Shown: piece by piece, positions 46,578-64,000 of the stretch
How the letters are laid out: each line of letters begins with the position of its first letter
How positions within the stretch are numbered: position 1 is the stretch's first letter
Source: Rhodopseudomonas julia
GTDB lineage: Bacteria > Pseudomonadota > Alphaproteobacteria > Rhizobiales > Afifellaceae
Assembly (NCBI RefSeq): GCF_030813515.1
Contig: NZ_JAUSUK010000002.1
Span: forward strand, 992,001-1,056,000
Reading direction: 5' to 3'
DNA: 64,000 nt
Translations under genes and position numbers: made by a program
The notes under the pieces: model-generated
Seen by the model: only the letters and a program-made list of their open reading frames with translations
What the model was told of the DNA's origin: nothing
The model's database searches: none

Positions 46578-46648
46578 CGGGCTGCCCGTTTCGCCCTCGA
46601 AAGATGTCAAGCAGATAGGCGCGTCAGATCAGCTGTTGCGAGCTGCCC

Positions 46649-47186: not shown

Positions 47187-47215
47187 TTGCGCCGGCGGCG
47201 TCAGCCCCCTAGTTT
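47187..47215 (+). promoter_or_regulatory. Promoter of tRNA-Pro
   Basis: TTGCGC, 17-base spacer, TAGTTT, ending 17 bases before the mature tRNA. Confidence 0.45.
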
Positions 47216-47232
47216 CCGCGCAATTGTGGCGT

Positions 47233-47279
<47 letters not shown>

Positions 47280-47309
<30 letters not shown>

Positions 47310-47357
47310 TTAAGCCTCTGATAATCAAGATATTTTGGGTCGGTCATTTCGTCTGAC
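47280..47357. repeat. Left attachment-type direct repeat (attL)
   Basis: 78 bases: the 30-base 3' end of tRNA-Pro plus 48 bases beyond it. Differs from the right copy at three sites only, all C/T changes. The CRISPR array begins about ten bases further on. Confidence 0.9.
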
Positions 47358-47368
47358 GATGTGCCGCC

Positions 47369-47928
47369 AACGATCATTGGCGGCCCTGCGTGAGGGCGAC
47401 ATCCGCAGCCCCGTTCCCCTCTCAGATTGAAGCGTTTCGATCCACGCCCCTGCGTGAGGGGCGACTGCCGATCGACGCGGACGACACGGCCTTTCAGGAG
47501 TTTCGATCCACGCCCCTGCGTGAGGGGCGACGCTATCTCGACGCTTTCGCGCAGGTGCAGGCGAAGTTTCGATCCACGCCCCTGCGTGAGGGGCGACATC
47601 ACTGCCGCAGCCGGGGTCAGCTGAGGCTGAGTTTCGATCCACGCCCCTGCGTGAGGGGCGACCACGCCGGCGGCCGAGATGTTTCTCGCAGACCAGTTTC
47701 GATCCACGCCCCTGCGTGAGGGGCGACCTGGCGACCTAATTTGCAACATCAATGGGTCAGCCGTTTCGATCCACGCCCCTGCGTGAGGGGCGACCAGCCG
47801 CTGTCAACGGCGCGCCAGCGCTTGTTTCCGTTTCGATCCACGCCCCTGCGTGAGGGGCGACATGCGGTCAAGAACGTCGGCTCCGGGCTGGCAGCCGTTT
47901 CGATCCACGCCCCTGCGTGAGGGGCGAC
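47369..47928 (-). CRISPR. Type I-C CRISPR array, 8 perfect repeats plus 1 degenerate, 8 spacers
   Basis: 32-base repeats at 47434, 47500, 47566, 47631, 47696, 47763, 47830 and 47897 (starts), all identical. On the minus strand each begins GTCGCCCCTCACG and ends GTGGATCGAAAC, the I-C pattern, and can form a 7-bp stem CGCCCCT/AGGGGCG. Spacers are 33-35 bases and all differ. The ninth repeat (about 47369-47400) is damaged: it keeps CGATC and CCTGCGTGAGGG but has changes and indels, as expected for the leader-distal end. Transcription is therefore leftwards from the cas2 side. Spacer targets cannot be determined here. Confidence 0.97.
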
Positions 47929-48142
47929 CGCCTCAAGATAAAGCGAGACCAGGTCAGAGAAAACGACGATGTTTGCGCGAACCGTGCCTCGGCGTGCGTC
48001 TGGAGGACGGCGCGCCGGGAAGTGCGTCCGTTTCAGTGCAGTGTTTTCAGGAGGTTGAGACTTGCGCGAACCTGCCGGGAAAACGCGGCACGCTTGCGGT
48101 TCGCGACAGCTCTTCAGCGTTGCCACCGCTTTCGGTGGAGGA
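47929..48142 (-). promoter_or_regulatory. CRISPR leader region
   Basis: 214 bases between cas2 and the first repeat. It should hold the leader and promoter of the array, read leftwards; the part next to the first repeat is locally richer in A/T. A hairpin CCACCG-AAAG-CGGTGG (48123-48138) lies just after the cas2 stop and may end the cas transcript. No clear -35/-10 pair was found. Confidence 0.6.
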
Positions 48143-48433
48143 TCATACGATCAGGGGGCCTTCTAGATCGGATGCTGGCTTGGCGCCAACATGCTCGACG
48201 CGGCGTTGCCCTTTTGCGCCGAGATAATAATAGCGCAAGCTGTCGGCTGCCGGATCGATAATGCCTTCCAGCCGCGCCTTCAGTTTCGTCCATTGGGCCG
48301 GGTCGACCTCAATCTCGAAGACCGAGAATTGCACGCGCTGGCCGAAATCGCGGCAAGCCTTGGCGATGCGTCGGAGCCGCCTGGCACCGCCCGGGTCACT
48401 CGTTCTCACGTCATAGGTTACGAGAACCAGCAT
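48143..48433 (-). CDS. cas2: CRISPR-associated endonuclease Cas2
   Basis: 96 residues. [10 protein letters not shown] at the start has the conserved Asp, and the ferredoxin-like core with [16 protein letters not shown] follows; the end [19 protein letters not shown] is typical of the I-C type. Structural partner of Cas1 in spacer integration. Three bases after cas1 and last in the cas operon, next to the leader. Confidence 0.95.
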
Positions 48434-48436
48434 CGT

Positions 48437-49471
48437 CTATTTCCAGAACCAGGGCGGGTAGGCGTCGAGGTCGCCGCGAAGATGCCGCGAGAGCATCTGC
48501 GCCTGGATGTACGGGACGAGGCCGAGCGGTGCTTTTTCGCCCAGGAAGGGGTGGAGAAGCTCTTCACGCTTGCGTTCCTGCCAGGCCGTCAGAACGGTGC
48601 GGCGAGCCTCGTCACGCATGATCACCGCGCCGCCCTCGCGTGTCTCGAAATCGTCGGCAGCAAGCTGCCTGCGATTGATCAACGACAACGCCAGCCGGTC
48701 GGCCAGTACGGGGCGCAACTCCTCCATCAGGTCGAGCGCAAGGCTCGGACGTCCAGGGCGGTCGCGGTGCAAGAAGCCCACGGCTGGATCGAGTCCGACG
48801 GCTTCCGCCGCACCACGGCAATCATGCGTCAAAAGCGTGTAGAGGAAGGAGAGGAGCGCGTTGACGGGATCGAGCGGCGGGCGACGCGAACGGCCGCGAA
48901 AACGCATGTTACCGTCTTCAACGCGGATCAGATGGTCGAAGACGGTGAAATAGAGCGCTGCGGCCTCGCCTTCGGCGCCGCGCAGCGCTTCTGCGTCACC
49001 TCCGCCAAGTTCGACCCGTCGCAAGATCTGAGCAAGTCGCGCGACCGCGCTTTCAAGTGCCTGACGCGCTTCTTCGTTCAGTCCGGTGCTATGGTCGCGC
49101 AAACCTCGCATCAAGACAGTGCGTTGGTTCGCGATCTTGCCCAAAAGGAGGGCGCGGACGATGTCGGCAGGCGTCTCGGAGGCGGCGTATTGGGCGCGCC
49201 GCAAGAGCACGTTACCGCTCACGGGCCCTTCGATGCGCGCCTGAAAACGGCCGACGCGGTCGAGAAGCACGATCGTCATGCCCTGCGCCGCCGCCGCCCC
49301 GATCATCGCGGGCGAGACGGCGATCGGGCCGAAGAGAACGATCGAGGCGAGCATGTGGAAGGGAACGCGCGCCCGCTCAATACCATCGACGGAGACGACA
49401 GCGTTCTCTCCGTCCTTGCGCAGCACAGCTCCCTCGGTAGTGACGTACAAGGTGTTGAGGAGCTTCTTCAC
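48437..49471 (-). CDS. cas1: CRISPR-associated integrase Cas1 (type I-C)
   Basis: 344 residues. N-terminal beta domain (LLNTLYVTTEGAVLRKDGE) and helical C-domain with the metal-site residues in RGAEGEAAALYF (Glu), GFLHRDRPGRPSLALDLMEE (His and Asp/Glu). Catalyses insertion of new spacers at the leader end. Its start overlaps the cas4 stop by four bases. Confidence 0.96.
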   Translation of the reverse strand: MKKLLNTLYVTTEGAVLRKDGENAVVSVDGIERARVPFHMLASIVLFGPIAVSPAMIGAAAAQGMTIVLLDRVGRFQARIEGPVSGNVLLRRAQYAASETPADIVRALLLGKIANQRTVLMRGLRDHSTGLNEEARQALESAVARLAQILRRVELGGGDAEALRGAEGEAAALYFTVFDHLIRVEDGNMRFRGRSRRPPLDPVNALLSFLYTLLTHDCRGAAEAVGLDPAVGFLHRDRPGRPSLALDLMEELRPVLADRLALSLINRRQLAADDFETREGGAVIMRDEARRTVLTAWQERKREELLHPFLGEKAPLGLVPYIQAQMLSRHLRGDLDAYPPWFWK

Positions 49472-50166
49472 CCGGTGTCCCCCGGCGTCTCCGCAAGGAG
49501 GTCAGCGAGCCTCTGCTGTGTCCAGGCGCCGGCGGAGCGGGCCACCGCCTTCGGACGGCAGAGCTCGGAGAGCGAGCACGCCCGACACCGGCTCTTGTGA
49601 GGCGTGGGAGCGGGGGTCACGTGCTTCGAAAAGACGGCGCGGAGTTTGGCGGCGGTCTCTTCGGTCAAAGCGCGCAGGCCGGTGTCGAAAGTGACGGCGA
49701 CACGTCGACGCGTCTCGCCGTAGAAGAGCGCGCCTTCCGGCACGGGCCGTCCGAACATCTCTTCCAGGCACAAGCCCTGGGCGCAGAGCTGCACCTCGTC
49801 GGCACGATGCGGTTTCGGCTTGCCGCGCTTGTATTCGACGGGAAGCGGGATCTCCCGCCCGTCCTCCGTCTTCAGGAATTCCACCATGTCGGCGACGCCA
49901 GCGAGGCCGAGACGCGTGCTCGCGATGGGGAGGGAAGAGACCCGGCGCACGCCGCGCACTCGCCGCTGGCCGGGCCGGTCGGTGGCGATGTGGAGGATGT
50001 CGCCCTCGACCGTGAAGCGGTTTTCCGCCCACATCCGCTCCAGATGGATGAGCGCCGCCTGGCGCAGGCAGTAGACGGCGTGCTGAAGGGCGGAGAGGGG
50101 AATGGGCTCGGCGCCCTCTGCAGGGGCTTCTCTACCGAGAAGATCCGCCGCCGCCATCGCCGTCAC
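49468..50166 (-). CDS. cas4: CRISPR-associated exonuclease Cas4 (type I-C)
   Basis: 232 residues. RecB-like nuclease with an iron-sulfur site: one cysteine in HAVYCLRQAA near the N-terminus and three in CRACSLSELC near the C-terminus; GVADMVEFL and LPVEYKRGKPK carry the acidic residues and Lys of the nuclease core. Trims pre-spacers and sets PAM and orientation during adaptation. Overlaps cas7 and cas1 by four bases each. Confidence 0.94.
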   Translation of the reverse strand: MTAMAAADLLGREAPAEGAEPIPLSALQHAVYCLRQAALIHLERMWAENRFTVEGDILHIATDRPGQRRVRGVRRVSSLPIASTRLGLAGVADMVEFLKTEDGREIPLPVEYKRGKPKPHRADEVQLCAQGLCLEEMFGRPVPEGALFYGETRRRVAVTFDTGLRALTEETAAKLRAVFSKHVTPAPTPHKSRCRACSLSELCRPKAVARSAGAWTQQRLADLLAETPGDTG

Positions 50167-51116
50167 AGCCGCTCGATGATCTCCACCCCGTCCGGCAGGT
50201 TCTCCCGGTCGATCGTCACGGCATAGTCAGAAAAGGCGCGGGCGGGAGGCGCGTTGTCGAGGCGTTCGCTGCCCGGCTCGTACGTCTCGCCCTTGAAGGC
50301 GCGCCAGATCTTGACGCGATCGAAGAGGCTATGGGCGGGCGCATTGCCGAGCGCGGTCGCATGGCGGAAGACGATGAGCTTCCTGGTCGCCATCTCGCCG
50401 CGTGCGGCTGAATGGTCATGCTCGAACATGGCTTCCAGCGCTTCCATGAGGAGTGCCAGGTCATCGTCCGAGAAGCCGGTGCGCTCCGCAAGTTTTGCAG
50501 AGATGAAGCCATGAGCGCGATAAACGCCATAGGGGACAATGTGCTTGCGGCCCATGGTGCGGTTTTCCGTGCGGGCATTGTCGTCATCGGCCTCGCCTTC
50601 GCGGCGTTCTTCTTTTTCTCTGGCGGTGGTCGCGGCCATGCGGGTGATGGAAATCTCCTGCGGAACGATTGGCTCGGCCGATTGGGCAAAGGTCATCTGC
50701 ACAGGGCCACGCACCTGACCGCAATTGATGCCTGTCGACATGACGGCCCCGAAGGTGCGGACATCGAAGAAATTGTCGCACATGAAGCGGCGCAGCTTGT
50801 CGGCTTCCTCGTCACCGTGGGGGTTGAGCTTCGCGCCATCGACCTTTTCGCCCGGCCGAATGGCCTTGTAGGCCTCGCGGTGCTTCTCGTTCAGGATTGC
50901 GCCTTCTTGCACGTAGATGGCCCGGCCGCTTTCTCCTCCATGTGCGATCTCTACGTAATTGCGGATCTTGCGCTTCAGGCTGACGTCAGAGACGAGGCCG
51001 TGACCCGTTTCCGGATCGAGTCGGGGCAGGTTTCCCGCATCGGGATCGCCGTTCGGATTGCCGTTCTTGACGTCGAAGATCAGAACGAAGTCGTGGCGTT
51101 GCGTAAGATCAGGCAT
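50163..51116 (-). CDS. cas7: Cascade backbone protein Cas7 (Csd2 family)
   Basis: 317 residues. RAMP-type protein that coats the crRNA spacer. DFVLIFDVKNGNPNGDPDAG and LPRLDPETGHGLVSDVSLKR at the start and IVPYGVYRAHGFISAKLAE in the second half are hallmarks of Csd2. Its start overlaps the end of cas8c by eight bases. Confidence 0.95.
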   Translation of the reverse strand: MPDLTQRHDFVLIFDVKNGNPNGDPDAGNLPRLDPETGHGLVSDVSLKRKIRNYVEIAHGGESGRAIYVQEGAILNEKHREAYKAIRPGEKVDGAKLNPHGDEEADKLRRFMCDNFFDVRTFGAVMSTGINCGQVRGPVQMTFAQSAEPIVPQEISITRMAATTAREKEERREGEADDDNARTENRTMGRKHIVPYGVYRAHGFISAKLAERTGFSDDDLALLMEALEAMFEHDHSAARGEMATRKLIVFRHATALGNAPAHSLFDRVKIWRAFKGETYEPGSERLDNAPPARAFSDYAVTIDRENLPDGVEIIERL

Positions 51117-52872
51117 CGGTCGAGGTCTCCTCAGAGGGAATTTCTTTGGTCGCGAAAAAGGCGTTGCGTTGATGGTAATAACCGAGACCGAAAAGAGCCT
51201 GCTCGGTGGCGGATAGGGTGGCGGGGAAGGGGTCCGAATTCGGATCCATCAGGTCCATGATCCCGCCGATCGTGCGCTCCATATGGATGCGCTGGCCCGG
51301 TCGGACCTTGCCAATCTTCGAGAGATGGTTGGCCGAACCTGCCTCCAGGAGTGCGAAGACTTTTCTCGGCTGGGCGGAGGCCGCACCGTAGAATTTGTCC
51401 TTGATGGTGGCGTTGACGCCGCGGCCGAGTGCGCCGGTCTGGGCGTGCTCGTAGGCCGCGAAGAGGCGGCCGAGCAGATAGCCTTTGTTGCGATTGTCCG
51501 GGTCAAGCGCCACAGGGGCCTCCTTTTCCATGCGAAAGTTGCGAACGAGAACGGCTTTCAGCATCGACGCGCGGCGGGCGTTGATGATCCCGTCGGAGCG
51601 AATGCGCATGAGAACCGTATTGAGAAGCGTGAGCGGGTAGGGCGTTCCCGTCAGAATTGAACGCGTCCACTCGCCGGCGAGGTTCGGCGGAACGTTTTCG
51701 CGCTTGCCGAGGACCGCCGTTTCGGAAAGATACTGCCAGAGCGCCGGCGTGCCGTGTGGGTCAGGCGGCGCGATGTGCATGTCCGCGCTGTAGCGGCCGT
51801 AGTTTTTCGCAAGCTCGCCGAAACTCTCCGCCAGCCAGAAGCGGACAGAAATGCGCGCAGCGTTCGGCGCCAGGCCCAGCACGTAAAAGCGAACGCCATC
51901 GCCGAGCTTCGGTTCGACGTCTTTCAGCGCCTGGCCGGCGCGGATTTTCTCAAGCACGATGCCGACCCGCTTTGCCGCGGCTTCCTCCTCCGCGGCCGAC
52001 GCCTTAGTGTCCGCTCCGCCGACCATCGCTCCGAAGATTTTCTCCGACAGAGCGGCCATTTGCGTGTCGTCTGCTTCCGCCCAGAACACGGTCGACGCGT
52101 CACCGATCTGCACGCGGTGTCCGGAATCCTTTTGGAGGAAATGGTTGAGTGCGCCGGCATAAGCTTCGGCGGCGCTTTCCGAGACCGGCGCGTTCTCACC
52201 TTGCTCATGGCCGTAGGATTCGAAGGCGTCGAGATTGAAAGACACGATCGAGCCGCCAGAGGATTGTCCGCCCCAAACGCCCTTGATCGCCGGGTGCAAC
52301 CGCGCGAACGGCGCACGTTTTCCCGAGATGAGGCAGATCTGTCCGCCACCCTCTGTGTCGGCTGTATTCAGAATCTTAAGGGCCGCAGGGCGGTCATGCA
52401 GATGAATGTTTTGCAGCCGCTCGTCTTCCAGCGCGAAGACGACGTTCTCGTCCCTTAGATCCTCCGAAAAATGCGCCTCGTACATTTCAGGCTGCCACAG
52501 GTCGAGAAAGCGGAGAAAGGCAAGCAAGCCCGGATCGTCTGTCGCGCCAATCAGTTTGCGGTGATGATCGACGAAGGCCTGATGCTCCTGCACCGTGCGC
52601 TTGCCAGATCCGGCGGTTACCCCCAGCGCGTAAGACGTCTTGTCCCAGAACGTGTTCGGAAGGATCGCGACCGTCCGCTTCACCGGGGCCGGCACCGACA
52701 TCTGCCGCGCGACCTTTTTCTTGCCTTGCGCTTCCCTCAGGTCTGAGACGGTCGCGATTGTCCCGTCGGCGTTCAATCCGATAACGAGCCCGATCTTCTG
52801 CGTGGCGAAACCAGGCGGTGGTGCGTCGGGAATCCGCTCATAGGCGCGCGCCAGGGATTGAAGGATGGTCAT
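51109..52872 (-). CDS. cas8c: Cascade large subunit Cas8c (Csd1 family)
   Basis: 587 residues, normal for Csd1. Begins MTILQSLARAYERIPD; KTSYALGVTAGSGKRTVQEH, SGGSIVSFNLDAFESYG and the C-terminal LGYYHQRNAFF are typical. In type I-C it recognises the PAM; an internal start within the gene often also yields the Cas11 small subunit, which I could not locate with confidence. Overlaps cas5 by four and cas7 by eight bases. Confidence 0.94.
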   Translation of the reverse strand: MTILQSLARAYERIPDAPPPGFATQKIGLVIGLNADGTIATVSDLREAQGKKKVARQMSVPAPVKRTVAILPNTFWDKTSYALGVTAGSGKRTVQEHQAFVDHHRKLIGATDDPGLLAFLRFLDLWQPEMYEAHFSEDLRDENVVFALEDERLQNIHLHDRPAALKILNTADTEGGGQICLISGKRAPFARLHPAIKGVWGGQSSGGSIVSFNLDAFESYGHEQGENAPVSESAAEAYAGALNHFLQKDSGHRVQIGDASTVFWAEADDTQMAALSEKIFGAMVGGADTKASAAEEEAAAKRVGIVLEKIRAGQALKDVEPKLGDGVRFYVLGLAPNAARISVRFWLAESFGELAKNYGRYSADMHIAPPDPHGTPALWQYLSETAVLGKRENVPPNLAGEWTRSILTGTPYPLTLLNTVLMRIRSDGIINARRASMLKAVLVRNFRMEKEAPVALDPDNRNKGYLLGRLFAAYEHAQTGALGRGVNATIKDKFYGAASAQPRKVFALLEAGSANHLSKIGKVRPGQRIHMERTIGGIMDLMDPNSDPFPATLSATEQALFGLGYYHQRNAFFATKEIPSEETSTDA

Positions 52873-53567
52873 CGCAGGATCTCCGGCGAGCCGAGGGGAG
52901 GCACCTTCACGACGCCGTTTTGAAGCATGGCGCGAAAAAACAGCGACGGCCGCCCCTTCGCCTGGTGGTCAATGTCGAAGAGCATGAAACCGAGATCGCG
53001 AGGGGTGCCGTAGCCGAGCTCGGCCGTATGTGCGGAGGTGTCGGGTTCGGGGATCGGTTCATCCAGGTCGATCAACCGGAAACGGGCGTCGAACTCCCGC
53101 GTGCCGAGGCAGGGCTGGTGGAAACACTGTCCATTGCGCGCCCGGCGATTGAACATGTCGAGATGCTTGCCTTCGTTGTCCTGCGGCCCGGCCTTTTCCG
53201 TCATCTCGAAATGCGCGGCGATGACGTAGGCGACGTCGACGAGGATGGTGGAGGCGCGCTGCTGACGGTCTTCGTCGACGAGGAGGGCGAGGCCGGAGAG
53301 ATCGCCGCGATTCATTGCCGTCTTGGCATTGCGGGCGGAGGCTTTGTGACCCACCTCGTTGCGGCGGATGGAGCGGAAGCGGATCGGCTTCAGCACATGG
53401 ATCTCGTCGATCACCCAACGGATCGCGGGCTTCCAGTGGATTGCCTCCAGAATGCCGCGCGCTGCCGACGGCGTCATCACGTCATAGGAGACGCGCTCCA
53501 CCTTCATTTCCGGCCGAGTGAAGCAGGCGAAGGGGCCTGAGACCAAAAGACGGATGCCGTAGGTCAT
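52869..53567 (-). CDS. cas5: Cas5 of type I-C, crRNA-processing subunit
   Basis: 232 residues. In I-C systems, which lack Cas6, Cas5 itself cleaves the pre-crRNA and caps the 5' handle. RLLVSGPFACFTRPEMKVER, SYDVMTPSAARGILEAIHWK and PAIRWVIDEIHVL at the N-terminus are the family signature; LGTREFDARF follows. First of the tightly packed cas5-cas8c-cas7-cas4-cas1-cas2 set; a 137-base gap separates it from cas3. Confidence 0.95.
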   Translation of the reverse strand: MTYGIRLLVSGPFACFTRPEMKVERVSYDVMTPSAARGILEAIHWKPAIRWVIDEIHVLKPIRFRSIRRNEVGHKASARNAKTAMNRGDLSGLALLVDEDRQQRASTILVDVAYVIAAHFEMTEKAGPQDNEGKHLDMFNRRARNGQCFHQPCLGTREFDARFRLIDLDEPIPEPDTSAHTAELGYGTPRDLGFMLFDIDHQAKGRPSLFFRAMLQNGVVKVPPLGSPEILR

Positions 53568-53704
53568 GGTGAATCGCCCCCACCTTTGTTTTCTCGGTTA
53601 CTGATTATCCCGTCTCTTATGGAGATCGTGCAACTGGGCCGTGTAGCCGCAGAGAAGGTCGTTTTCTAAGCGATGGTGTTTTCGAGCGCCAAGTACTCCG
53701 CATT
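53568..53704 (-). other. Gap between cas3 and cas5
   Basis: 137 bases, no gene. It is the only sizeable break in the cas operon and could hold a separate promoter for cas5 onwards; I found no good consensus match. Confidence 0.4.
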
Positions 53705-55954
53705 CTACCAGAGCAGACCAACGTCTTCCTCGTAGAGCGTGTCCGTCTTCAGGATCGCGAACTGATCTCCCCGTAAATCCGGATGTGCAAAGGCGATATG
53801 TCCGTTTTTCTTGAGGAGTGCCCGCGCCCGGGGTGGGACCGAAACTATGTAGGGCTGCAGCTCACGGGCGATAGCGCCCGAGGGGATGGTCGGAACTCCG
53901 AGCTTTGCGATCGCCTGTTGCGCGCGTTTTTCGCCCGCGACGATCACCGGCGCCATGCCGTCTTCGATCATCCTGTAGTGTTCGGCGATGGTGCGATAGG
54001 CAATGTCCGGACCGTAGCTCTGCGAGCATTGTGAAAGATCTAGGATCGGCTTGCCGAGGCGTTCCTCGCCGGCCTGCCAGTAGACCTCGTGAAAATAGCG
54101 CTCTATGGCCTCCGGCGCGAAATGGTTCTCGAAGAGATCCTTCATCCGCTCCATGCTGCCGATGAGGCTTTTGATTTCGGCGGGCGGCGCATGGTCCGGG
54201 TCGGATGGCCTGAAAACTGTGACGACGCTTTCGTCTACTGGTCGCCGCATCTCACGGTTCACCCGCCCCGCGGCCTGGGCGATCTGATCAAGCCCCGCTT
54301 CGGCCCGCCAGGCGACGGGAAAATCGACATCGACGCCCGCTTCGATCAGTGACGTGGCGATCAGACGGCAGGGGCGTCCGTCTTTGAGGCGCTTTTTCAC
54401 GTTAGTGAGGATGCGGCGCCGGTGCGCCGCGTATTGCCGGGTCGTCAGGTGCACGAGCCCGTCCACCTCTTCTGCCTGCGCCGCCCGATAGAGATCGAGG
54501 GCATGGCGGCGACTGTTGACGATGACGAGCGCCTGCGGATGCTCCTTGAGAGCTTCCACGAGAGCCTCGTCGCTCATCTCGTCGGCGAAGACGAGACGTC
54601 CGCGCTCAAAGGCTTTGTGAAGTCGTGGCGGGTCGGGTGCGAGCTCGCGGCCGTCGAGATCGAGCGCCAGGAGATGATTCGGCTTCAGCGCGTTCAGCTT
54701 GCGTGCATCGAAGGCAGGCTGGGTCGCTGTGCACAGAACGATCGAGCAGCCGTAATTGCGGCAGAGCTCGTCGATCGCCCAGACTGTCGGCGCCAAGAGC
54801 TTCTTCGGTAAGACTTGTGCTTCGTCGAGCACAACGACGCTGCCGGCGATGTTGTGGAGCTTACGGCAGCGCGAGGTGCGGGCGGCGAACAGGCTCTCGA
54901 ACAGCTGCACATGCGTTGTGACGATAATGGGTGCGGCCCAGTCTTCCATAGCGAACCGCATCTTGGCCTTCATCGATCGGGTGCTGTCCGCTGCGCCGAC
55001 GTGACCGGTCTCTTCATCCTCGACGGCAGAATGATGCTCCAGCACAAGATCGTCGCCCAGGATCGCCCGGAAGATCGCGGCCGTCTGGTCGATGATTGAG
55101 GTGAAAGGTATGCCGAAGATGATCCGGCGATGACCGTGGTGTTTCGCATGATCGAGCGCAAAGCCGAGCGAAGCGAGCGTCTTGCCGCCGCCGGTCGGCA
55201 CGTTGAGCGTGAAGAGGCCGGGGGGCATCGCGGCGCGTGCCCGCGCAGTGGCAAGAATTTCGGCCCGCAATCGCCCGATCTCGCTCTGCGGCTCGCCGAA
55301 GGCGGCGATCCGTTCCTCGAAGGCCGCCAAAAAGGTGGGCAGGCATTCCGCAAGGCTCGGCCAGTCGCGGTCCTTCGCGACGTCTCCGGTTTTTTGGTAG
55401 AAGAGCTCGGTCTCCTTGAAATCGGCGTCGACGAGGCAGGAGAAGAGCATGCGCCCGAGCATGGCGAAGCGAAAGGCGCGGCGAGGCCAGTCGGGGGCCC
55501 TCCAGTCGAAGGGCGGCATGAGTTCGGACGGCGTGTCGGGGAGGAGGTCGGCCCAGCCCGGCGCCAAAGCTTCCATGGCAAAACCGTCCAGCCGCTCCTC
55601 CAGGGAGCCGGGCTGATGGCTGGCCCGGTCCGGCAGGCCGGCATGGTGGCCGGCGATCGCCTGCGCCATGAGCCACGCGATCCAGTGGTTCGGCGCATGC
55701 GCAAAGAGATCGAGAATGGCCTTGGCGCCGGCCGTAGAATGATCGACCTGTTCGCCCGAGCCTTGCAGCCGCGCCTGAAAGATCGGCGAGAATTTCCCCA
55801 CGTCATGCGCTGCGGCGCTGAAAGCGGCAGCCTCTGCGATCTTCAAGGGCGCGGCGAATTCGCGTGCTCGCCGCTCCACGGCGCTGAGGTGATCGCAGAG
55901 AGGCTCCCAGTCGCTGCAATCGGTTGTCTGGGTGGAATGGGCGTAGAATATCAT
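53705..55954 (-). CDS. cas3: CRISPR-associated helicase-nuclease Cas3
   Basis: 749 residues, HD nuclease fused to a superfamily-2 helicase. HD part: early His in FYAHS, AAHDVGKFSPIFQARL with the HD pair near 49-50, VDHSTAGA and AIAGHHAGLPD. Helicase part: Walker A PTGGGKTLASLGFA, DEAQ box VVLDEAQVL, LCTATQPA (motif III), ATSLIEAGVDVDFPVAWRAE (motif V) and QAAGRVNR (motif VI). All key residues are present, so the system looks active for interference. First gene of the cas operon. Confidence 0.96.
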   Translation of the reverse strand: MIFYAHSTQTTDCSDWEPLCDHLSAVERRAREFAAPLKIAEAAAFSAAAHDVGKFSPIFQARLQGSGEQVDHSTAGAKAILDLFAHAPNHWIAWLMAQAIAGHHAGLPDRASHQPGSLEERLDGFAMEALAPGWADLLPDTPSELMPPFDWRAPDWPRRAFRFAMLGRMLFSCLVDADFKETELFYQKTGDVAKDRDWPSLAECLPTFLAAFEERIAAFGEPQSEIGRLRAEILATARARAAMPPGLFTLNVPTGGGKTLASLGFALDHAKHHGHRRIIFGIPFTSIIDQTAAIFRAILGDDLVLEHHSAVEDEETGHVGAADSTRSMKAKMRFAMEDWAAPIIVTTHVQLFESLFAARTSRCRKLHNIAGSVVVLDEAQVLPKKLLAPTVWAIDELCRNYGCSIVLCTATQPAFDARKLNALKPNHLLALDLDGRELAPDPPRLHKAFERGRLVFADEMSDEALVEALKEHPQALVIVNSRRHALDLYRAAQAEEVDGLVHLTTRQYAAHRRRILTNVKKRLKDGRPCRLIATSLIEAGVDVDFPVAWRAEAGLDQIAQAAGRVNREMRRPVDESVVTVFRPSDPDHAPPAEIKSLIGSMERMKDLFENHFAPEAIERYFHEVYWQAGEERLGKPILDLSQCSQSYGPDIAYRTIAEHYRMIEDGMAPVIVAGEKRAQQAIAKLGVPTIPSGAIARELQPYIVSVPPRARALLKKNGHIAFAHPDLRGDQFAILKTDTLYEEDVGLLW

Positions 55955-56089
55955 CGTCCGTTACTATCACGGGTTTGCGAAGCAGAAGTAAGTTATGGTC
56001 ATGCGCCCCGGAGATCTCGGGCACATTGCTTATTCAAGCTAATCTAAAAAATCCAACCTGAAATCGAATATCAAGAGAATTCTCAAATG
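55955..56089 (-). promoter_or_regulatory. Region upstream of cas3, presumed cas promoter
   Basis: 135 bases, strongly AT-rich at 56035-56095 compared with everything around it. Several TTGA-type boxes occur on the minus strand, but no pair has good spacing, so the promoter is placed only roughly. Confidence 0.35.
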
Positions 56090-56659
56090 TTATCGCGATT
56101 CACGTGACGTGTGGAAAAGAATAGAGTCGCATGCAGGCGCTTGTTGCCAGAAGCGCAAAGTGTGCCTTCGCCCGCCTGGTTGGAGAGCGCCATGTGGAGG
56201 CCGTCCCAGTGGAGACACGTTCATCGGCGAAAACAGCTCTCGTCTTGACTCCCTGACGATCTCTGTCTTGCGTTTTTCCGTCGGCGCATCGGCGACCTGT
56301 TTGCCCCAGGTGGGAAAGCGCGGCAGCCTCGGAGAGTGGGCGGGGTGCCACGAAAGAAGAAAAGCGCCAGGCTCTGGCTCCGGCCGGAGCGAGACGACAA
56401 GAACGGTGCCCTCACACACGAGAGCGCCTGGGTCATCCTCGACAGTGGCCGACAAATCCGTGCTGGATGCCGCGCTGAGGAGAGTGATCGAGCTCACATC
56501 ATCCTCGCCGGGTACATCAAAGGGCGAGACGCGGAGAAATTTGTCCCCGGCTCGTCCCGGCGCCCGGCACATCTTGTCACCGTAGCGGAGGTTGTCGCCC
56601 GTTACTTCGAAGCGAAGCATGACGCCGTCGCGCGTCCGGCGGAACTGGGCAGTAGGCAC
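56090..56659 (-). CDS. Orphan ORF of the island, 189 codons, function unknown
   Basis: Starts at GTG 56659 (MPTAQFRRTRDGVMLRFEV). The first ~110 residues have coding-like composition, with VEDDPGALVCEGTVLVVSLR; the last ~45 are Pro/His/Arg-rich and look like an out-of-frame read, so the gene may have a frameshift near its end. No family recognised, no signal peptide or helices. It is divergent from the integrase remnant and upstream of cas3 on the same strand. It could be cargo of the element or a decaying gene. Confidence 0.4.
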   Translation of the reverse strand: MPTAQFRRTRDGVMLRFEVTGDNLRYGDKMCRAPGRAGDKFLRVSPFDVPGEDDVSSITLLSAASSTDLSATVEDDPGALVCEGTVLVVSLRPEPEPGAFLLSWHPAHSPRLPRFPTWGKQVADAPTEKRKTEIVRESRRELFSPMNVSPLGRPPHGALQPGGRRHTLRFWQQAPACDSILFHTSRESR

Positions 56660-57083
56660 GGCGCTTCCTCAAATGGTGGGGAGAGCGCACATGCGAAGAC
56701 ATCACCTCGATCACGTGCCAGCAGTATGTCCGCTCGCGGGCCGGGAAGCCGTGGCGCTCGTGCAAGCCCGAGGCGATGGGCAACCCCGTCCGCCTGACAA
56801 GCACCGTCGGCGCACGACGGGAGTTGGAGATGCTCCGCGCAGCGCTCCGGCTGGCGGTCAAAGACCAGATCCTGACTGAACATGTGACGGTTTATCTGCC
56901 CCCGAGGAGGGGCAGCGAGAGGACTGGCTGACGGAAGAGGAGGTTGAACTCCTGTGCCGTATCGCCAGAGAAACCCCCGAACGCCAGCGTGGACATCGTG
57001 GTGCCCAGACCGGAGAGATCCTCGAAACCGATGAACGCCCGTTGGCACATCGCAGGTTCGAATCCTGCTGCCCCGATCATTAA
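56656..57083 (+). pseudogene. Decayed tyrosine recombinase (phage-type integrase) next to attR
   Basis: Two frames together read as the N-terminal and core-binding part of an integrase. Frame one, 56656-56930: ARRFLKWWGERTCEDIT, then CQQYVRSRAGKPWRS and ARRELEMLRAALRLAVK, ending near YLPPRRG. Frame two, from about 56919: EDWLTEEEVELLCRIAR. This is the pattern seen in integrases (W-G, DIT, Y, RREL, LRAA, LPP, WLT.EE). A frameshift lies near 56905-56920, the 5' end is lost, and the catalytic domain with the Arg-His-Arg-Tyr residues is absent; frame two runs into the right repeat and stops at 57083. Confidence 0.7.
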
Positions 57084-57127
57084 GTCTCTGATAATCAAGA
57101 TATTTTGGGTCGGTCACTTCGTCTGAC
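57050..57127. repeat. Right attachment-type direct repeat (attR)
   Basis: Copy of 47280-47357 with 75 of 78 bases identical. It contains only the last 30 bases of tRNA-Pro, so it is not a tRNA gene. The similarity stops sharply on both sides. Confidence 0.9.
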
Positions 57128-57477
57128 AACGGCGTGCGGAAGGCCTTTATGTTCTACATGTTCTACGCAGTTGGCGTTGAAGCAGCCTACATTGGAACCT
57201 TCGCGCAAATCTCCGTCCGTCAGCCCTCAAGCTCAAGGGCCAAGCGCAGTGCCGCACTGCCGCAAGCGATACAGAAGGAGTGCCGCGGCGCATCCGTGAA
57301 ACGGCGCTCGAGCGCGTTTACGTCGCCGATCTCATCAGCCGGTTCCCGACGGCCTCATCTTTCCATCCGCAGGGCAAGCCAGGAGCTTTTCGCAAAGCGT
57401 AAGGCGTGTCCGCCAGATGCGATTCGGAGACCAGCTCGGCCAGAGCATGTGGCCACGCCGGTGGCGAATCGCTCCGG
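57128..57477. other. Region right of the island, no supported gene
   Basis: 350 bases between attR and the dehydratase gene. Reading frames here give low-complexity or Ser/Arg-rich translations with no family features. It may contain further remnants of the element or of a displaced chromosomal gene. Confidence 0.4.
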
Positions 57478-58413
57478 TCAGAGAGGCGGCAGGCCAGCGC
57501 CACAGACCGGCGCACAGACAATCTCGTTGTCTCGCGTCGAAATGGAGCCGGTCGCAAGCGCCGCCATCGCCGCCGCACCGCTCGAATCCGCAGCGAGACC
57601 GAACTCGAACCAGAGCTGCTTTGCCGCCGCTTCCATGGCGGCATCTTCGATCAACACGACTTCGTCGACGACTTGCCGCGTCAGCGCAAACAGCCGCTCG
57701 TCGGTCCGCTGGCATGCCATCGTCGGCACGTTGCTGGTGACTTGATCCAGGGTGACGACATGCCCGGCCTTGAGCGAGGCATGGAGCGTCGGCGATCCGA
57801 CCGGCTCCACTCCGATGATCCGGATCGAGGGTTTCAGCGCCTTGAGCGCCACGGCGGCCCCGGTGATGAACCCGCCGCCGCCGACGGCAATGACCACCGT
57901 CTCGACATCCGGAAGGTCGTCGAAAATCTCCAGGCCGACGGTTCCCTGGCCGGCAACGATCAGGGGGTCGGCGAAGGAGTGGAAGTAAAGCGCGCCGGTC
58001 TTCTCGACATAGGCGTGTGCGCCGGCATTGGCCTCGTCGAAATTGGCGCCGCCAATCACCGTCTCGGCGCCCCAGCGGCGCATCTTGTCGACTTTCTCGG
58101 CCTGAACGTTTTCCGGCAGGAAGATGGTGGCCGGGACGTTCTTGAGGCTCGCGCTGCGGGCAACGGCGAGGCCGTGATTGCCGCCCGAAGCCGCCACCAG
58201 GCCGCGCTCGACATCCTTCGGATCGGAGGCGAGGAGCTTGTTGGCGGCCCCGCGCGCTTTGAACGAGCCGGAAGGCTGAAGACATTCGAGCTTCAGATGG
58301 AGGCTGCCCGCGCAGACGGGATTGCGGAACTGCGTGGCAGGCAGAAGCGGCGTGCGCCGGACATAGCCGTCGATCCGTCGGGCTGCGGCGCGAACGTCGT
58401 CGAGATCGATCAT
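57478..58413 (-). CDS. PLP-dependent threonine/serine dehydratase-like enzyme
   Basis: 311 residues, fold type II. The PLP lysine is Lys52 in PSGSFKARGA; SGGNHGLAVARSA and the Gly loop VGGGGFITG bind the cofactor. No C-terminal ACT domain, so it is the short catabolic form. Related enzymes include EutB of ectoine catabolism and hydroxyaspartate dehydratases. Start ATG 58413 follows AGAAGG and overlaps the stop of the deacylase gene (ATGA). The product, a 2-aminoacrylate-type enamine, is the kind of compound RidA clears, and a RidA gene is in the same locus. Confidence 0.85.
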   Translation of the reverse strand: MIDLDDVRAAARRIDGYVRRTPLLPATQFRNPVCAGSLHLKLECLQPSGSFKARGAANKLLASDPKDVERGLVAASGGNHGLAVARSASLKNVPATIFLPENVQAEKVDKMRRWGAETVIGGANFDEANAGAHAYVEKTGALYFHSFADPLIVAGQGTVGLEIFDDLPDVETVVIAVGGGGFITGAAVALKALKPSIRIIGVEPVGSPTLHASLKAGHVVTLDQVTSNVPTMACQRTDERLFALTRQVVDEVVLIEDAAMEAAAKQLWFEFGLAADSSGAAAMAALATGSISTRDNEIVCAPVCGAGLPPL

Positions 58414-59474
58414 ATGAGATCCTTCTGGTAGGGGGCGGCGACGACAAGACAGCAATTGCCGGGATTGACCCGCCCAGGATGCCGCCGTCCATAGAGAATG
58501 CCGTCCTGGCCGTAGGCAAGATCGAGCGGGGTGCGTGTCGGATTGTCGACGAAATGAATGCGTCCCGCCGCCTGGTTCTTTTTCACCCAGGTTCCATTGG
58601 CATGGAAGGGCTCGAAGACACCGGCCTCCGGCGCGAAGACGTAACCGCGCTCGCCAGGTATCTCCAGGACGTTCCGTTCTTCCTGCGCTTTGTTTGGCTC
58701 TCCGGCGATGACGCCGAGATGGTGTAGCACATTGTGCACGCCGCGTCTGGCAATCGACAGCGCTTCGAGCGAGACGGTGCCCGCGCCGGCCATCTCCGTG
58801 CCGACCGTGGTCAGTCCCGCATGGACGGCGGCCGCGGTCGAGGTGCGCTCCTCGCCGAGATTGCTGATGACGACCGTTAGCGGCGCGTCGAAGGCGAGCA
58901 CGGCCTCGATGTTGCGCTTCAGATGCTCGGGATCCTTTGTGGGCTCGACGATGGCGCTCGGCAGAATGTCGAGCGAAGAACCGCCGGAATGCAGATCGAT
59001 GAAGGCATCGGCGATCGGATAGAGGCGGTCGCAGACAAAGGCCGAAATCTGCTGCGAGATGGTGCCGGCCGGATCGCCCGGATAGGTGCGGTTGAGGTTG
59101 AGCCCATCGACGGGCGAGGTGCGATGCGCAGCCTGTACGGCCGGCAGGTTGAGCGCCGGGACGATGATGACGCGGCCCGAAATGTCCTCCGGCTTCAACT
59201 CGCGGAAGAGCTCGCCAAGCACGATCGGTCCCTCGTGCTCGTCACCGTGATTGCCGCCGGTGAGGAGCACCGTTGGGCCATTGCCGTTCTTGATGACCGC
59301 GATGGGGATTCGTACCGCCCCCCAGGCGTCGTCATGCGGCGAATGCGGAATGTGAATATGGCCGGTCTGGCGGCCTTCACGCTCGAAATCGATCGTCGCA
59401 AAAGCCGTGCTCTTGCGGGGTCTTTTCTCATTGAAATCGGTCAATTGCACTGCCTGCAGCCGAGGGGTTGTCAT
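58410..59474 (-). CDS. Succinylglutamate desuccinylase/aspartoacylase-family deacylase, DoeB-like
   Basis: 354 residues from ATG 59474; an earlier in-frame codon at 59501 would cover the operator and is rejected. Zinc ligands: His76 and Glu79 in GGNHGDEHEGP, and His162 in DLHSGG; NLNR at 127-130 fits the substrate-carboxylate site of the family. The overall pattern, including HSPHDDAWGAVRIPI and SIARRGVHNVLHHLG, resembles N-acetyl-diaminobutyrate deacetylase DoeB/EutE. It should hydrolyse an N-acyl amino acid. Coupled to the dehydratase downstream. Confidence 0.82.
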   Translation of the reverse strand: MTTPRLQAVQLTDFNEKRPRKSTAFATIDFEREGRQTGHIHIPHSPHDDAWGAVRIPIAVIKNGNGPTVLLTGGNHGDEHEGPIVLGELFRELKPEDISGRVIIVPALNLPAVQAAHRTSPVDGLNLNRTYPGDPAGTISQQISAFVCDRLYPIADAFIDLHSGGSSLDILPSAIVEPTKDPEHLKRNIEAVLAFDAPLTVVISNLGEERTSTAAAVHAGLTTVGTEMAGAGTVSLEALSIARRGVHNVLHHLGVIAGEPNKAQEERNVLEIPGERGYVFAPEAGVFEPFHANGTWVKKNQAAGRIHFVDNPTRTPLDLAYGQDGILYGRRHPGRVNPGNCCLVVAAPYQKDLI

Positions 59475-59485
59475 CCATAACAAAA

Positions 59486-59501
59486 ATGATAACGTTGTCA
59501 T
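59486..59501. promoter_or_regulatory. Candidate LacI-family operator between divergent catabolic genes
   Basis: ATGATAACGTTGTCAT, a 16-bp palindrome with one mismatched pair and central CG, the layout of LacI-family sites. It lies 12 bases from the deacylase start and 71 from the PLP-enzyme start, so one regulator could control both directions. No regulator gene is in the window. Confidence 0.5.
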
Positions 59502-59571
59502 TACTCCGTGTCCACAACGTCAGACTCGTCATTTGGGGCACGAAGCGTCAGCAGGGGGCGAGCGGGATTTC

Positions 59572-60927
59572 ATGGTTATGGATGCATCGGCAGCTGCGTC
59601 TGGCGGCACGAGCGTTGGCAGTTGCGACGGATCTCTGGCCGCCGAGATGGCGCATGATTTTATTGTCGACGACACGCTTCGCGGCATTCCGGCGGGGACG
59701 GATCCCTTCCCGGGTGCGGAGATTGCCGCGCGTGCCTGGTCCCCGACGGCGGGCGACCTTGCCTGTCCCGTGCTCACGGTGCAGGAAAGTGCCTATCGCT
59801 CGAACCGGGACGCAATTTTCGCCTATGTCCGGGAGGCGGGCGCACTTCTTGCCCCGCATGCCAAGACGCCAATGTCGCCGGCGCTCGCACGCGATCTCGT
59901 CGCCCATGGCGCATGGGGGCTTTCCGCCGCCAATCTCCAGCAGGCGAGCGTGCTTCTCAAGGCGGGCGTGACGCGTCTGCTTCTCGCCAACCAGATCGGC
60001 GGTGAGGTGAACGGCGAACGTCTTGGGCGCCTGCTTGCACGCTATCCGGAGGCGGAGATCGTGCTTTTTGTCGATTCCCCAACCGCATTGGCAGCGGCCG
60101 CGCGCGCAGGCGAGGCGGCCGGACGGTCGCAGCCTGTGATGATCGAGGTGGGGCTCGCGCGTGCCGGCTGCCGGACGGCGGAGGTAGCTCAATGCCTCAT
60201 CGATATCGCTTGCGATACACCGCAGATCGCGCTTGCCGGTGTGGCCGCCTATGAAGGTGCTGTTGCGAGCGAGGACGAAGCCGTGACGCAGAAGGCTATC
60301 GCGGCGCTGAACCGTCTGGCGGCCGATGTGTTTGCCAGCGTGCGCAAGGCCGAACCGAAACGTCGCCTCATCCTCTCGGCCGGTGGCTCGCAGTTCTTCG
60401 ACCTCGTCGTCGAGAAACTGAAGGCGGTCGCCGACGCCGACGGCAATGCGGATCTGATGCTGCGGAGCGGCGCGATCTTCTTTCACGATCACGGCGTCTA
60501 CGCCCGCGCTTTTAAGCGGATGGATACCCGTCGCGGCTTTGTGCGCGACGGCGAAATCGTGGCGGCGTCCGACATTTTCAAGCCGGCGATGCGGCTATGG
60601 GCCGAAGTGCTTTCGCGGCCTGAGCCCAGTCTCGCGATCTGCGGCCTCGGCATGCGCGATGTGTCTTTCGATCAGGGTTTCCCGATCGCGCTTGCCGCAT
60701 GGCGGGGAGGGGAGAAGGGCGAGAACCTTCGAGGCGTCGCGGCGATCGAGAAGCTCAACGATCAGCACGGTTTTCTGCGTATCGACGAAGAGGTTTCGCT
60801 GTCGGTGGGCGACATCGTCGAATTCGGCATTTCGCATCCCTGCACCTGCTTCGATCGCTGGCGTGCCTTCTTCGTGATCAATGACGCGCATCGCGTCACG
60901 TCGGTCCATCAAACCTTCTTCGGCTGA
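59572..60927 (+). CDS. DSD1-type PLP enzyme (D-serine/D-threonine/hydroxyaspartate dehydratase-like amino-acid deaminase)
   Basis: 451 residues from ATG 59572; ATG 59578 is also possible. Fold type III (alanine-racemase-like) barrel with the PLP lysine Lys98 in APHAKTPMSPALA, then a beta domain ending in GISHPCTCFDRWR, whose His and Cys match the zinc site of eukaryotic-type D-serine dehydratase. Relatives remove the hydroxyl and amino groups of D-serine, D-threonine or hydroxyaspartate. It carries an unusually long N-terminus of ~60 residues. First gene of the rightward operon, six bases before the first permease gene. Confidence 0.82.
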   Translation: MVMDASAAASGGTSVGSCDGSLAAEMAHDFIVDDTLRGIPAGTDPFPGAEIAARAWSPTAGDLACPVLTVQESAYRSNRDAIFAYVREAGALLAPHAKTPMSPALARDLVAHGAWGLSAANLQQASVLLKAGVTRLLLANQIGGEVNGERLGRLLARYPEAEIVLFVDSPTALAAAARAGEAAGRSQPVMIEVGLARAGCRTAEVAQCLIDIACDTPQIALAGVAAYEGAVASEDEAVTQKAIAALNRLAADVFASVRKAEPKRRLILSAGGSQFFDLVVEKLKAVADADGNADLMLRSGAIFFHDHGVYARAFKRMDTRRGFVRDGEIVAASDIFKPAMRLWAEVLSRPEPSLAICGLGMRDVSFDQGFPIALAAWRGGEKGENLRGVAAIEKLNDQHGFLRIDEEVSLSVGDIVEFGISHPCTCFDRWRAFFVINDAHRVTSVHQTFFG

Positions 60928-60933
60928 GGTTTC

Positions 60934-61602
60934 ATGCAGAATCTCAATTTTCAGCAGGTCTTGCGATATCGCGAGGAGTTCATCGACGGCCTGCTGGCAA
61001 CATTGCAGATGACTGGCATTTCCGCCTTTTTCGGGCTTATCATTGGTGTCGTGGGTGCACTCCTCCTCACCCGCGGGCCGAAGCCGCTTCGCATCCTCCT
61101 GAAGAGCTACATCGAGATCATCCGCAATACGCCGCCGCTGATCCAGCTCTTCATCATCTTCTTCATCTTTCCGAGCATTGGCGTGCGCCTGTCGCCGTTC
61201 CCGGCCGCCTGCGTCGCGCTCAGCATCTACTTCGGCGCTTACGCCATCGAGATCATCCGCTCGGGCCTCAATTCGATCCCGAAGAGCCAGATTGAGGCGG
61301 GCGAATGCCTCGGCCTGACGTCCTTTGAGGTGTTCCGCTTCGTCATTCTTCCGCCGGCGCTGCGCAACATCTATCCCTCGCTCACCAGCCAGCTCGTGCT
61401 GCTGCTTCTCGGCACGTCGGTTGCCTCGCAGATCGCGGCGACGGAGCTCTTCCACACGGCGACCTTCGTGGAATCGCGCACCTTCCGTTCTTTTGAGGTC
61501 TATGCGCTGATTTCCGCAATCTACGTCGTCGTCGTCGTCGCAAGCCGGGTCATGTTCGCCGCCATCGGAGCGTTTGCGTTCCGCTGGCCCGTGCGCCGCT
61601 AG
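60934..61602 (+). CDS. Amino-acid ABC transporter permease (HisM/GlnP type), first
   Basis: 222 residues, about five helices. The polar-amino-acid permease loop is seen in EIIRSGLNSIPKSQIEAGECLGLT, and ILPPALRNIYPSLTSQLVLL follows. The N-terminal helix region includes EFIDGLLATLQMTGISAFFG. Works with the permease and ATPase downstream. Confidence 0.9.
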   Translation: MQNLNFQQVLRYREEFIDGLLATLQMTGISAFFGLIIGVVGALLLTRGPKPLRILLKSYIEIIRNTPPLIQLFIIFFIFPSIGVRLSPFPAACVALSIYFGAYAIEIIRSGLNSIPKSQIEAGECLGLTSFEVFRFVILPPALRNIYPSLTSQLVLLLLGTSVASQIAATELFHTATFVESRTFRSFEVYALISAIYVVVVVASRVMFAAIGAFAFRWPVRR

Positions 61603-61624
61603 GCCTTCCGGAGATACGCCCAAG

Positions 61625-62275
61625 ATGCGCAGCCTTTCGACTGTCGACCTCATTGCCTTTTTGTACGGCTTCCAGTGGACGCTGGTGCTGGTCGTGCTCT
61701 CCTTCTTTTTCGGAGGTCTGCTCGGTCTCGTTCTGGCGCTTCTGCGCACGAGCCCGTTCCTGCCGCTCCGGCTGTTTGCCGCGCTCATCCTGCAGGTTGT
61801 GCAGGGTGTGCCGCTGCTGGCGCTCCTGATGTTCTTTTACTTCGGCATGCCGGTGTTCCTGGGCGTCGAAGTGCCGTCGCTGGCGGCGGTGACGGTCGCC
61901 TTCTCCATCTATTCCGGCGTCTTCCTGGGCGAAATCTGGCGGGGCGGCATCCAGGCGGTCAAATTCACCCAATGGGAGGCGGGCGCCTCGCTCGGGCTCA
62001 GCCGCTACGAGCAGTTCCGCTTCATCATCGCGCCGCAGGCTCTGAAGATCTCGCTGCCGGCGACGGTCGGCTTCCTCGTCCAGCTCATCAAGGGCACATC
62101 GCTTGCGGCGGTCGTCGGCTTCGTGGAGCTGACGCGGGCCGGCCAGATCGCCGCTGCGGCGACGTTCCAGCAGATCCTCGTCTACTCCATCGTCGCGGCG
62201 GTCTATTTCGCGATCTGCTTCCCGCTCACCACCTGGTCCCGTTCACTCGAGGCGCGTCTCAATGGCACTGGTTGA
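61625..62275 (+). CDS. Amino-acid ABC transporter permease (HisM/GlnP type), second
   Basis: 216 residues; start at ATG 61625 after GGAGA, because the longer reading overlaps the previous gene. Conserved loop GEIWRGGIQAVKFTQWEAGA, then ASLGLSRYEQFRFIIAPQAL. Its end overlaps the ATPase gene by 14 bases, so the two are coupled. Confidence 0.9.
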   Translation: MRSLSTVDLIAFLYGFQWTLVLVVLSFFFGGLLGLVLALLRTSPFLPLRLFAALILQVVQGVPLLALLMFFYFGMPVFLGVEVPSLAAVTVAFSIYSGVFLGEIWRGGIQAVKFTQWEAGASLGLSRYEQFRFIIAPQALKISLPATVGFLVQLIKGTSLAAVVGFVELTRAGQIAAAATFQQILVYSIVAAVYFAICFPLTTWSRSLEARLNGTG

Positions 62276-62993
62276 AATCAAGAACGTCCGCAAATCCTTC
62301 GGAGATCTGGAGGTACTGAAGGACGTCTCGCTCAATATCGAGGAAGGCGAGATCGTCACGATCATCGGGCGCAGTGGCTCGGGCAAGAGCACCCTCTTGC
62401 GTTGCATTAACGCGCTCGAAGCCATTCAGGCCGGCGAGATCCAGGTCGAGGGGCAGAGCGTCTTTCCGAAGATGAATGGCCTCCGCGAACTGCGCCAGAA
62501 GGTTGGCATCGTTTTCCAGGCCTTCAATCTGTTTCCGCATCTGACGGTAGAGCGCAATATCACGCTGGCGCCGGTCCGCACGAAAAGGGTCGACAAGGCG
62601 GGGGCGCGCGCGCTTGCCGAGAAGGTGCTCACGCAAGTCGGGCTAGCGGAGAAGATCGACGCCTACCCCGAACAGCTTTCGGGCGGCCAGCAGCAGCGCG
62701 TGGCGATTGCGCGCTGTCTCGCCATGTCGCCCAATCTCATGCTCTTCGATGAGGTCACGTCGGCGCTCGATCCCGAACTCGTCGGGGAAGTTCTCAAGGT
62801 CATGGAGGACATGGCCAGGAGGGGCATGACGATGATCCTGGTCACCCACGAAATGGGCTTTGCCCGCAACGTGGCGACCAAGCTCGTCTTCATGCATCAG
62901 GGCAAGGTCTGGGAAGAAGGACCACCCGCGGAATTGTTCGCAAATCCCAAGACGCCGGAGCTCCAGAGCTTCATAGGCTCACACCGTCACTAG
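62262..62993 (+). CDS. Amino-acid ABC transporter ATP-binding protein
   Basis: 243 residues. Walker A GRSGSGKST, Q-loop GIVFQAFNLFPHLTV, signature LSGGQQQRVAIARCLAM, Walker B MLFDEVTSALDP and H-loop VTHEMGFA are all intact. Belongs to the polar amino-acid uptake (GlnQ/HisP) group. Confidence 0.93.
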   Translation: MALVEIKNVRKSFGDLEVLKDVSLNIEEGEIVTIIGRSGSGKSTLLRCINALEAIQAGEIQVEGQSVFPKMNGLRELRQKVGIVFQAFNLFPHLTVERNITLAPVRTKRVDKAGARALAEKVLTQVGLAEKIDAYPEQLSGGQQQRVAIARCLAMSPNLMLFDEVTSALDPELVGEVLKVMEDMARRGMTMILVTHEMGFARNVATKLVFMHQGKVWEEGPPAELFANPKTPELQSFIGSHRH

Positions 62994-63005
62994 AGGAAGA
63001 CAGCC

Positions 63006-63791: not shown

Positions 63792-63818
63792 TCGAAAAAA
63801 GAGAGTAGACGGAAAGAC

Positions 63819-64000
63819 ATGACCATCACGCGTTACGAAAGCGGTCCGCGCATGAGCCAGGCCGTTGCGGCCAACGGCTTCGTCCATGTCGCCGGCCAGG
63901 TGGCCGACAACCGCAAGGCTTCCATCGAGCAACAGACGGAGGAAGTCCTTGCAAAAATCCTGGCCCTCGTCGAGGGCGCTGGATCAGACAAGTCGAAGAT
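63819..64000 (+). CDS. RidA (YjgF/YER057c/UK114) family protein, 5' part
   Basis: First 60 residues only; the gene runs off the window. TRYESGPRMSQAVAANGFVH and HVAGQVADN match the start of RidA-family proteins, though the stretch is closer to the variant subgroups than to canonical RidA. Such proteins hydrolyse reactive enamines and imines made by PLP dehydratases, which fits the two PLP enzymes of this locus. Starts after GGAAAGA. Confidence 0.8.
   Translation, partial: MTITRYESGPRMSQAVAANGFVHVAGQVADNRKASIEQQTEEVLAKILALVEGAGSDKSK

Follow-up and report, generated by a model that had tools for sequence, protein, structure and literature searches.

The type I-C CRISPR-Cas locus in the 64,000-nt stretch of DNA analyzed here (the window) is best read as a real, decayed integrative island at tRNA-Pro, which carries the CRISPR-Cas genes and would later have been immobilized by damage to its integrase gene; we put the probability of this reading at roughly 0.8. 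The evidence for it includes a direct repeat of a tRNA end on both sides of the locus, an empty site with a single copy of that repeat in a relative from the same genus, and an integrase remnant abutting the right repeat, the last being a new observation here. If the reading is true, the locus, with its empty site, shared insertion and integrase remnant, offers a clean example of CRISPR-Cas travelling by tRNA integration and then being fixed.

The repeat-bounded CRISPR-Cas locus

A repeat search of the window, followed by a recount, gave a 78-bp direct repeat whose copies are identical at 75 of 78 positions (mismatches at left-copy positions 47307, 47315 and 47347) and lie 9770 bp apart from start to start (Table 1). 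The original prediction, that a repeat beginning in tRNA-Pro(TGG) brackets the CRISPR-Cas locus, was borne out by this search together with ARAGORN, which places the start of the left copy at base 48 of a whole tRNA-Pro and its end 48 bp beyond the tRNA. A repeat of the tRNA 3’ end is present at both island ends, and a 75/78 match starting within a tRNA gene is far beyond chance. A 161-bp query of the site found six matches in the window’s own genome (3.79 Mb in five contigs), and only the two repeat copies go beyond query base 112; since no other match reaches well past the tRNA end, the 78-bp site is not a dispersed repeat. The prediction had named a commonly dispersed sequence downstream of tRNA-Pro as the finding that would speak against it, and none was seen in this genome; on the same genome-wide search we rejected a dispersed or chance origin of the repeat. 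The GC content of the island (62.8%) carries no foreign signature relative to that of the window (62.3%), which counts against the island reading.

Table 1 Features of the locus and its right flank (positions in the window)
Feature	Coordinates	Strand	Basis
tRNA-Pro(TGG), insertion target, whole at left end	47233..47309	+	ARAGORN
Left 78-bp repeat copy (attL side)	47280..47357	+	Repeat search, recount
Degenerate partial CRISPR repeat (3’ part), past the last full one	47381..47400		Spotted by eye
CRISPR array, 8 repeats/7 spacers	47434..47928	- (transcription strand inferred from cas genes)	Array analysis
Probable leader, cas2-array gap	47929..48142	-	Inferred from position only
cas2	48143..48433	-	TIGR01573, PF09827
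cas1 (type I-C)	48437..49471	-	TIGR03640
cas4	49468..50166	-	TIGR00372
cas7/csd2	50163..51116	-	TIGR02589
cas8c/csd1	51109..52872	-	TIGR01863; PADLOC Cas8c
cas5c	52869..53567	-	TIGR01876
cas3, 749 aa	53705..55954	-	TIGR01587, TIGR01596; PADLOC Cas3c
Tyrosine integrase remnant, three pieces in three frames (56345-56656, 56647-56901, 56904-57050)	56345..57050	+	Match to intact G006 integrase
Right 78-bp repeat copy (attR side), tRNA-Pro bases 48-77 plus downstream sequence	57050..57127	+	Repeat search, recount
Right-hand variable block, outside the CRISPR island, continuing to ~67.85 kb beyond the window	57128..64000		In G002, absent here in G001; dS

The interval between the repeats holds a complete type I-C system, as had been claimed. 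All seven cas genes reach their NCBIfam cut-offs, four of them through models named for type I-C (Cas1c, Cas7/Csd2, Cas8c/Csd1 and Cas5c), and they form one cluster with an array of eight identical 32-nt repeats and seven spacers of 33–35 nt. The available text of PMC6360697 gives 32 bp as the repeat length of type I-C. The Cas3 protein is 13 residues shorter than the 762 residues of its counterpart in an Afifella marina relative. Because the cas genes and the array look whole, judged by their open reading frames, CRISPR immunity may well still work. None of the seven spacers had an exact match in viral contigs (first 26 nt as the pattern, with three free positions), and a search of the whole array against phages gave no match; in a plasmid search, 11 records matched the array at 60–80% identity, which we take to be repeats of other arrays. 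The degenerate repeat copy sits between the left repeat and the array, whose eroded far end it may represent.

Apart from the array and the cas genes, the interval between the repeats has room only for the probable leader and a right-end stretch of about 1.1 kb. No relaxase or conjugation gene was recognizable in this interval, which consists of CRISPR-Cas and the integrase remnant, and the seven longer frames of the last 1.1 kb had no Pfam match at its cut-off. The remnant was recognized by its similarity to an intact integrase frame of 448 codons in G006, a genome from another genus of the same family (48, 64 and 57% identity for the three pieces in order; combined E 3e-65). In the intact protein, PF00589 covers residues 239–382 of 418; the remnant ends at RPLAH, at about residue 235 on the G006 count and before the Pfam catalytic domain, and the right repeat follows directly. 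The element contains only this broken remnant and no intact integrase gene. Two results weigh on the other side: the remnant pieces by themselves gave weak profile matches (Pfam 0.15; for one piece, PHROG integrase 0.0019), and the mobility of the island would have to be deduced from integrase homologues, none of them intact inside it. Within the genus, the G006 integrase finds a match in two of five genomes (that of the window and G004).

Empty site, shared insertion and age of the island

We compared five genomes of the genus, including that of the window, and only G001 and G002 were informative at the tRNA-Pro(TGG) site. In G003 and G004, the match to the window around this tRNA is confined to the tRNA itself, and these two genomes therefore have no bearing on the empty-site question. 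In G002, window positions 44726–47356 align with L037 19901–17178 and positions 57050–64000 with L037 17256–10311, so that the two alignments, on an 885-kb contig, have just one site copy in common. Cas8c finds no match in G002 (family-wide, it occurs in 3 of 11 genomes, the window’s included), and the site there has no integrase remnant. A relative without cas genes had been expected to carry one site copy and to run from tRNA-Pro straight into the sequence to the right of 57127, and precisely this arrangement, an empty site, was found in G002. The reverse situation, a relative without cas genes that still has both repeat copies, was not seen, G002 having one copy in the region examined.

G001, which we take to be Afifella marina DSM 2698, has the same junction at tRNA-Pro as the window. 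It is without the stretch matching window 48477–50108, which is nearly all of cas1 and cas4, and in its CRISPR locus (L036 5891–6539) the cas2 frame is whole, two repeat cores are left and most of the array is missing; judging from these sequences, the G001 locus can probably no longer take up spacers. Alignment of G001 to the window breaks off at 56328, immediately ahead of the integrase remnant, and picks up again at 67845. Between these points G001 has about 7.2 kb of other DNA (L036 12748–19986), and the A. marina stretch L049 has no right repeat copy. By eye from the translations, the 7.2-kb stretch contains cytochrome c-like and molybdopterin oxidoreductase-like genes.

The claim that ordinary chromosomal genes lie outside the repeat fails for the right side. 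G001 does not have the block from 57.13 to 67.85 kb at this position, and the synonymous divergence (dS) between the window and G002 is low in it, with a median of 0.11 for 6 genes vs 0.32 for 16 others (p 4.0e-4), the values being taken by hand and one of the 16 others (0.038) lying below the block. By these comparisons the right flank is not simply ordinary backbone; it varies between species and has its own history. The genes in the block (L044) include threonine dehydratase-like, DoeB-like and aldolase-like ones, all below the NCBIfam cut-offs, and further on there are ABC transporter genes, by reading of the frames.

Divergence between the window and G001 bears on the age of the island. 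For five cas genes, with cas1 and cas4 left out, dS is 0.057–0.256 (median 0.156), vs 0.258–0.566 (median 0.343) for 17 flank genes (exact Mann-Whitney p 3.8e-5); the genes in this test are not independent, and cas3 (0.256) comes close to the lowest flank gene (0.258). The flank set, chosen by hand, comprises four genes on the left and, on the right, 13 frames whose dN is clearly lower than dS; six further frames on the right, overlapping or antisense and with dN close to dS or higher, were dropped, as were two ABC transporter rows whose G001 matches are distant paralogues. The two repeats of the window are alike at 48 of 51 positions from the tRNA end on and are 73–79% alike to their counterparts in G001 and G002. 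The lower cas dS and the greater likeness of the window’s own repeats point to arrival, or exchange, after the species split.

These same observations stand against the strongest alternative, in which the island already occupied this site in the ancestor of the window, G001 and G002 and later disappeared from G002, either through excision or through recombination of one direct repeat with the other. We consider this history possible, if rather unlikely. The junction is common to the window and G001, yet the intergenic DNA upstream of the tRNA is closer between G001 and G002 (146 of 160 positions alike) than in the other pairs (122/162 and 124/163), and an old gain with one loss fits this tree. 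In a Cas8c tree (31 rows, midpoint-drawn, with a long-branch warning outside the Afifella group), the A. pfennigii sequence clusters with those of the two remaining Afifella at support 99/98, so that Afifella Cas8c forms one supported group; together with the closeness of G001 and G002 upstream of the tRNA, this grouping suits an old gain and a loss in G002. The grouping also means that the type I-C system may be old in the genus, which counts against our main reading. The 5.1-kb flank available from A. pfennigii matched none of the four remaining genomes of the genus at the DNA level. An ancestral island would have entered in the same way as in the reading we prefer; it differs only in gain vs loss and is not exclusive of it. 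The original proposal of site-specific integration with CRISPR-Cas as the cargo is supported by the repeat, the empty site in G002 and the remnant; either a gain in this lineage or a loss in G002 may lie behind the difference between the two.

Integrase family, use of tRNA-Pro and probable decay of the island

Homologues of the integrase (E 1e-30 or better) occur in 35 of 297 genomes of the order Hyphomicrobiales. We examined the loci of 30 of the 40 matches listed, including that of the G006 query itself. A 3’ fragment of tRNA-Pro lies no more than about 205 bp downstream of the homologue in 11 of these 30 loci (the query’s own included), and there is one locus with tRNA-Met and one with a tRNA-Arg fragment. 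The family thus appears as one that repeatedly uses tRNA-Pro in Hyphomicrobiales, with one member sharing a contig with candidate defence genes. Three results count against our main reading of the window: with a library of 59 tRNA sequences, no tRNA fragment was recognized in 17 of the 30 loci; the anticodon is CGG, not TGG, in 10 of the 11 related islands (by best library match or typed fragment); and no CRISPR-Cas was seen in the fetched homologue islands. In G220, contigs 54 and 68 (L142, L140, L130) carry one whole tRNA-Pro, two 3’ fragments and two integrase homologues, which suggests that two islands used the same tRNA.

The whole tRNA and its fragment were found on one contig and in one orientation in 4 of the 10 genomes searched out of these 11, at distances of 51.7 kb (G004), 63.7 kb (G164), 41.8 kb (G107) and 42.1 kb (G076); in the remaining six, they are on different contigs or the search gave the fragment alone. 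Of the nine genomes with both copies, seven show agreement at 13–22 of the 48 positions that follow the tRNA, one at 29/48 and one at 43/48. With 46 of 48 positions in agreement, the window’s extended match beyond its tRNA is unusual but not unique.

The tRNA-Pro fragments at the homologue loci begin at tRNA base 28–33, and the right copy in the window begins at base 48. On its left, the right copy is therefore most likely bounded by a deletion edge and not by the original edge of the attachment site, and the deletion probably took the catalytic half of the integrase together with part of the site. We propose that the island was inserted at tRNA-Pro, with the whole tRNA at the left and a 3’ tRNA fragment at the right beside the integrase gene, and that frameshifts in the integrase gene came later. 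One deletion would then have joined the middle of the integrase directly to sequence within the right site. With it would have gone the catalytic half and the segment of the site in which identity between the copies sets in among related islands, such that about 17 bases (15–20) were replaced by integrase sequence. For integrases that target tRNA genes, that segment of the attachment site is where recombination would take place. The island would probably be unable to excise itself now, leaving CRISPR-Cas fixed in place. A single deletion from the integrase interior to the right-site interior is the probable course of events, for which no intermediate was seen, and from these comparisons we infer the order of events, the loss of mobility, the transfer between Afifella species and the activity of the CRISPR system.

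More specifically, and only tentatively, a minimal tRNA-Pro island may have carried the system, as its sole cargo, from one Afifella species to another, after which that one deletion of the integrase catalytic half and part of the attachment site locked it in place, with the A. marina relative losing cas1 and cas4, the genes for spacer acquisition, and keeping the effector genes. On this view, a mobile immune system would have been caught as it turned into a fixed host gene set.

In another alternative, the remnant and the repeats belong to an older tRNA-Pro island and CRISPR-Cas entered this relic later, for example by homologous recombination between species. Related islands measure 41.8–63.7 kb between their ends vs 9.8 kb here, the G006 contig with the closest intact homologue carries other cargo in a genome without a Cas8c match, and the right block shows recombination between species. 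Between the repeats, however, no further trace of an older island can be recognized, and the G002 site is without any remnant; we regard this course as improbable. Exchange between species on both sides of the locus would also accommodate a repeat that arose by segmental duplication or flank recombination, without site-specific insertion, and borders the cas genes by chance, a notion made very hard to uphold by the broken integrase, which abuts the right repeat in the same orientation as its homologues beside tRNA-Pro fragments, and by the empty site, which closes at the repeat.

Comparison with other CRISPR-Cas loci and mobile elements

The Cas8c loci that we retrieved do not show residence in a tRNA island to be usual for type I-C in this group. 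A tRNA lies on the retrieved stretch in 9 of 29 Cas8c loci, L049 from A. marina among them, and none of these nine has a second, attachment-like copy of the tRNA end; the other matches in them were one pair of tRNA genes 73% alike and one 22-nt match in L066, and one inverted match in L076. A scan of the 29 Cas8c loci, L038 and L039 for tyrosine recombinase motifs, run with strict filters and no positive control, gave nothing and carries little weight.

In Pseudomonas aeruginosa, type I-C systems occur on pKLC102-like conjugative elements. The available part of PMC7913775 likewise places type I-C on a mobile element, a likeness by description only and in another host group. CRISPR-Cas on tRNA islands is already known, and the present locus adds a well resolved example. 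As described in the accessible text of PMC6360697, CRISPR-Cas is found in Vibrionaceae on islands that have an integrase and attachment sites; some of these islands, with types II-B and III-A, are located at tRNA genes, and empty relatives are shown. Type I-C in that paper is for the most part found in regions that are Tn7-like or contain transposases, or else by itself with no recognizable element. Those islands are larger and have integrases, in contrast to the window island with its tRNA-Pro target and broken integrase. Another parallel comes from the Mesorhizobium element ICEMspSymAA22 (PMC8627217, in the text available), an ICE from the same bacterial order that, like the window island, is integrative and carries type I-C; ICEs next to tRNA-Pro are also reported there. 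That system has no cas4, cas1 or cas2, which resembles the absence of nearly all of cas1 and cas4 from the A. marina relative. ICEMspSymAA22 is a very large conjugative element, and the window island spans 9.8 kb with no recognizable transfer genes. Among the titles and abstract beginnings available on Afifella and CRISPR, none was titled on this locus.

The G006 locus resembles the window in its integrase, to which the remnant is 48–64% identical, and in the tRNA-Pro 3’ fragment just downstream of the gene. It differs in that the left end of its island is off the contig, the cargo is other than CRISPR-Cas and the genome has no Cas8c match. This cargo, on the 21-kb contig 11 (L086, L082) with the closest intact integrase, includes an AAA_13 protein that matches the PADLOC candidate PDC-S06, a C5 methylase, a Rep3 protein and two radical SAM proteins, one of them with a weak viperin match.
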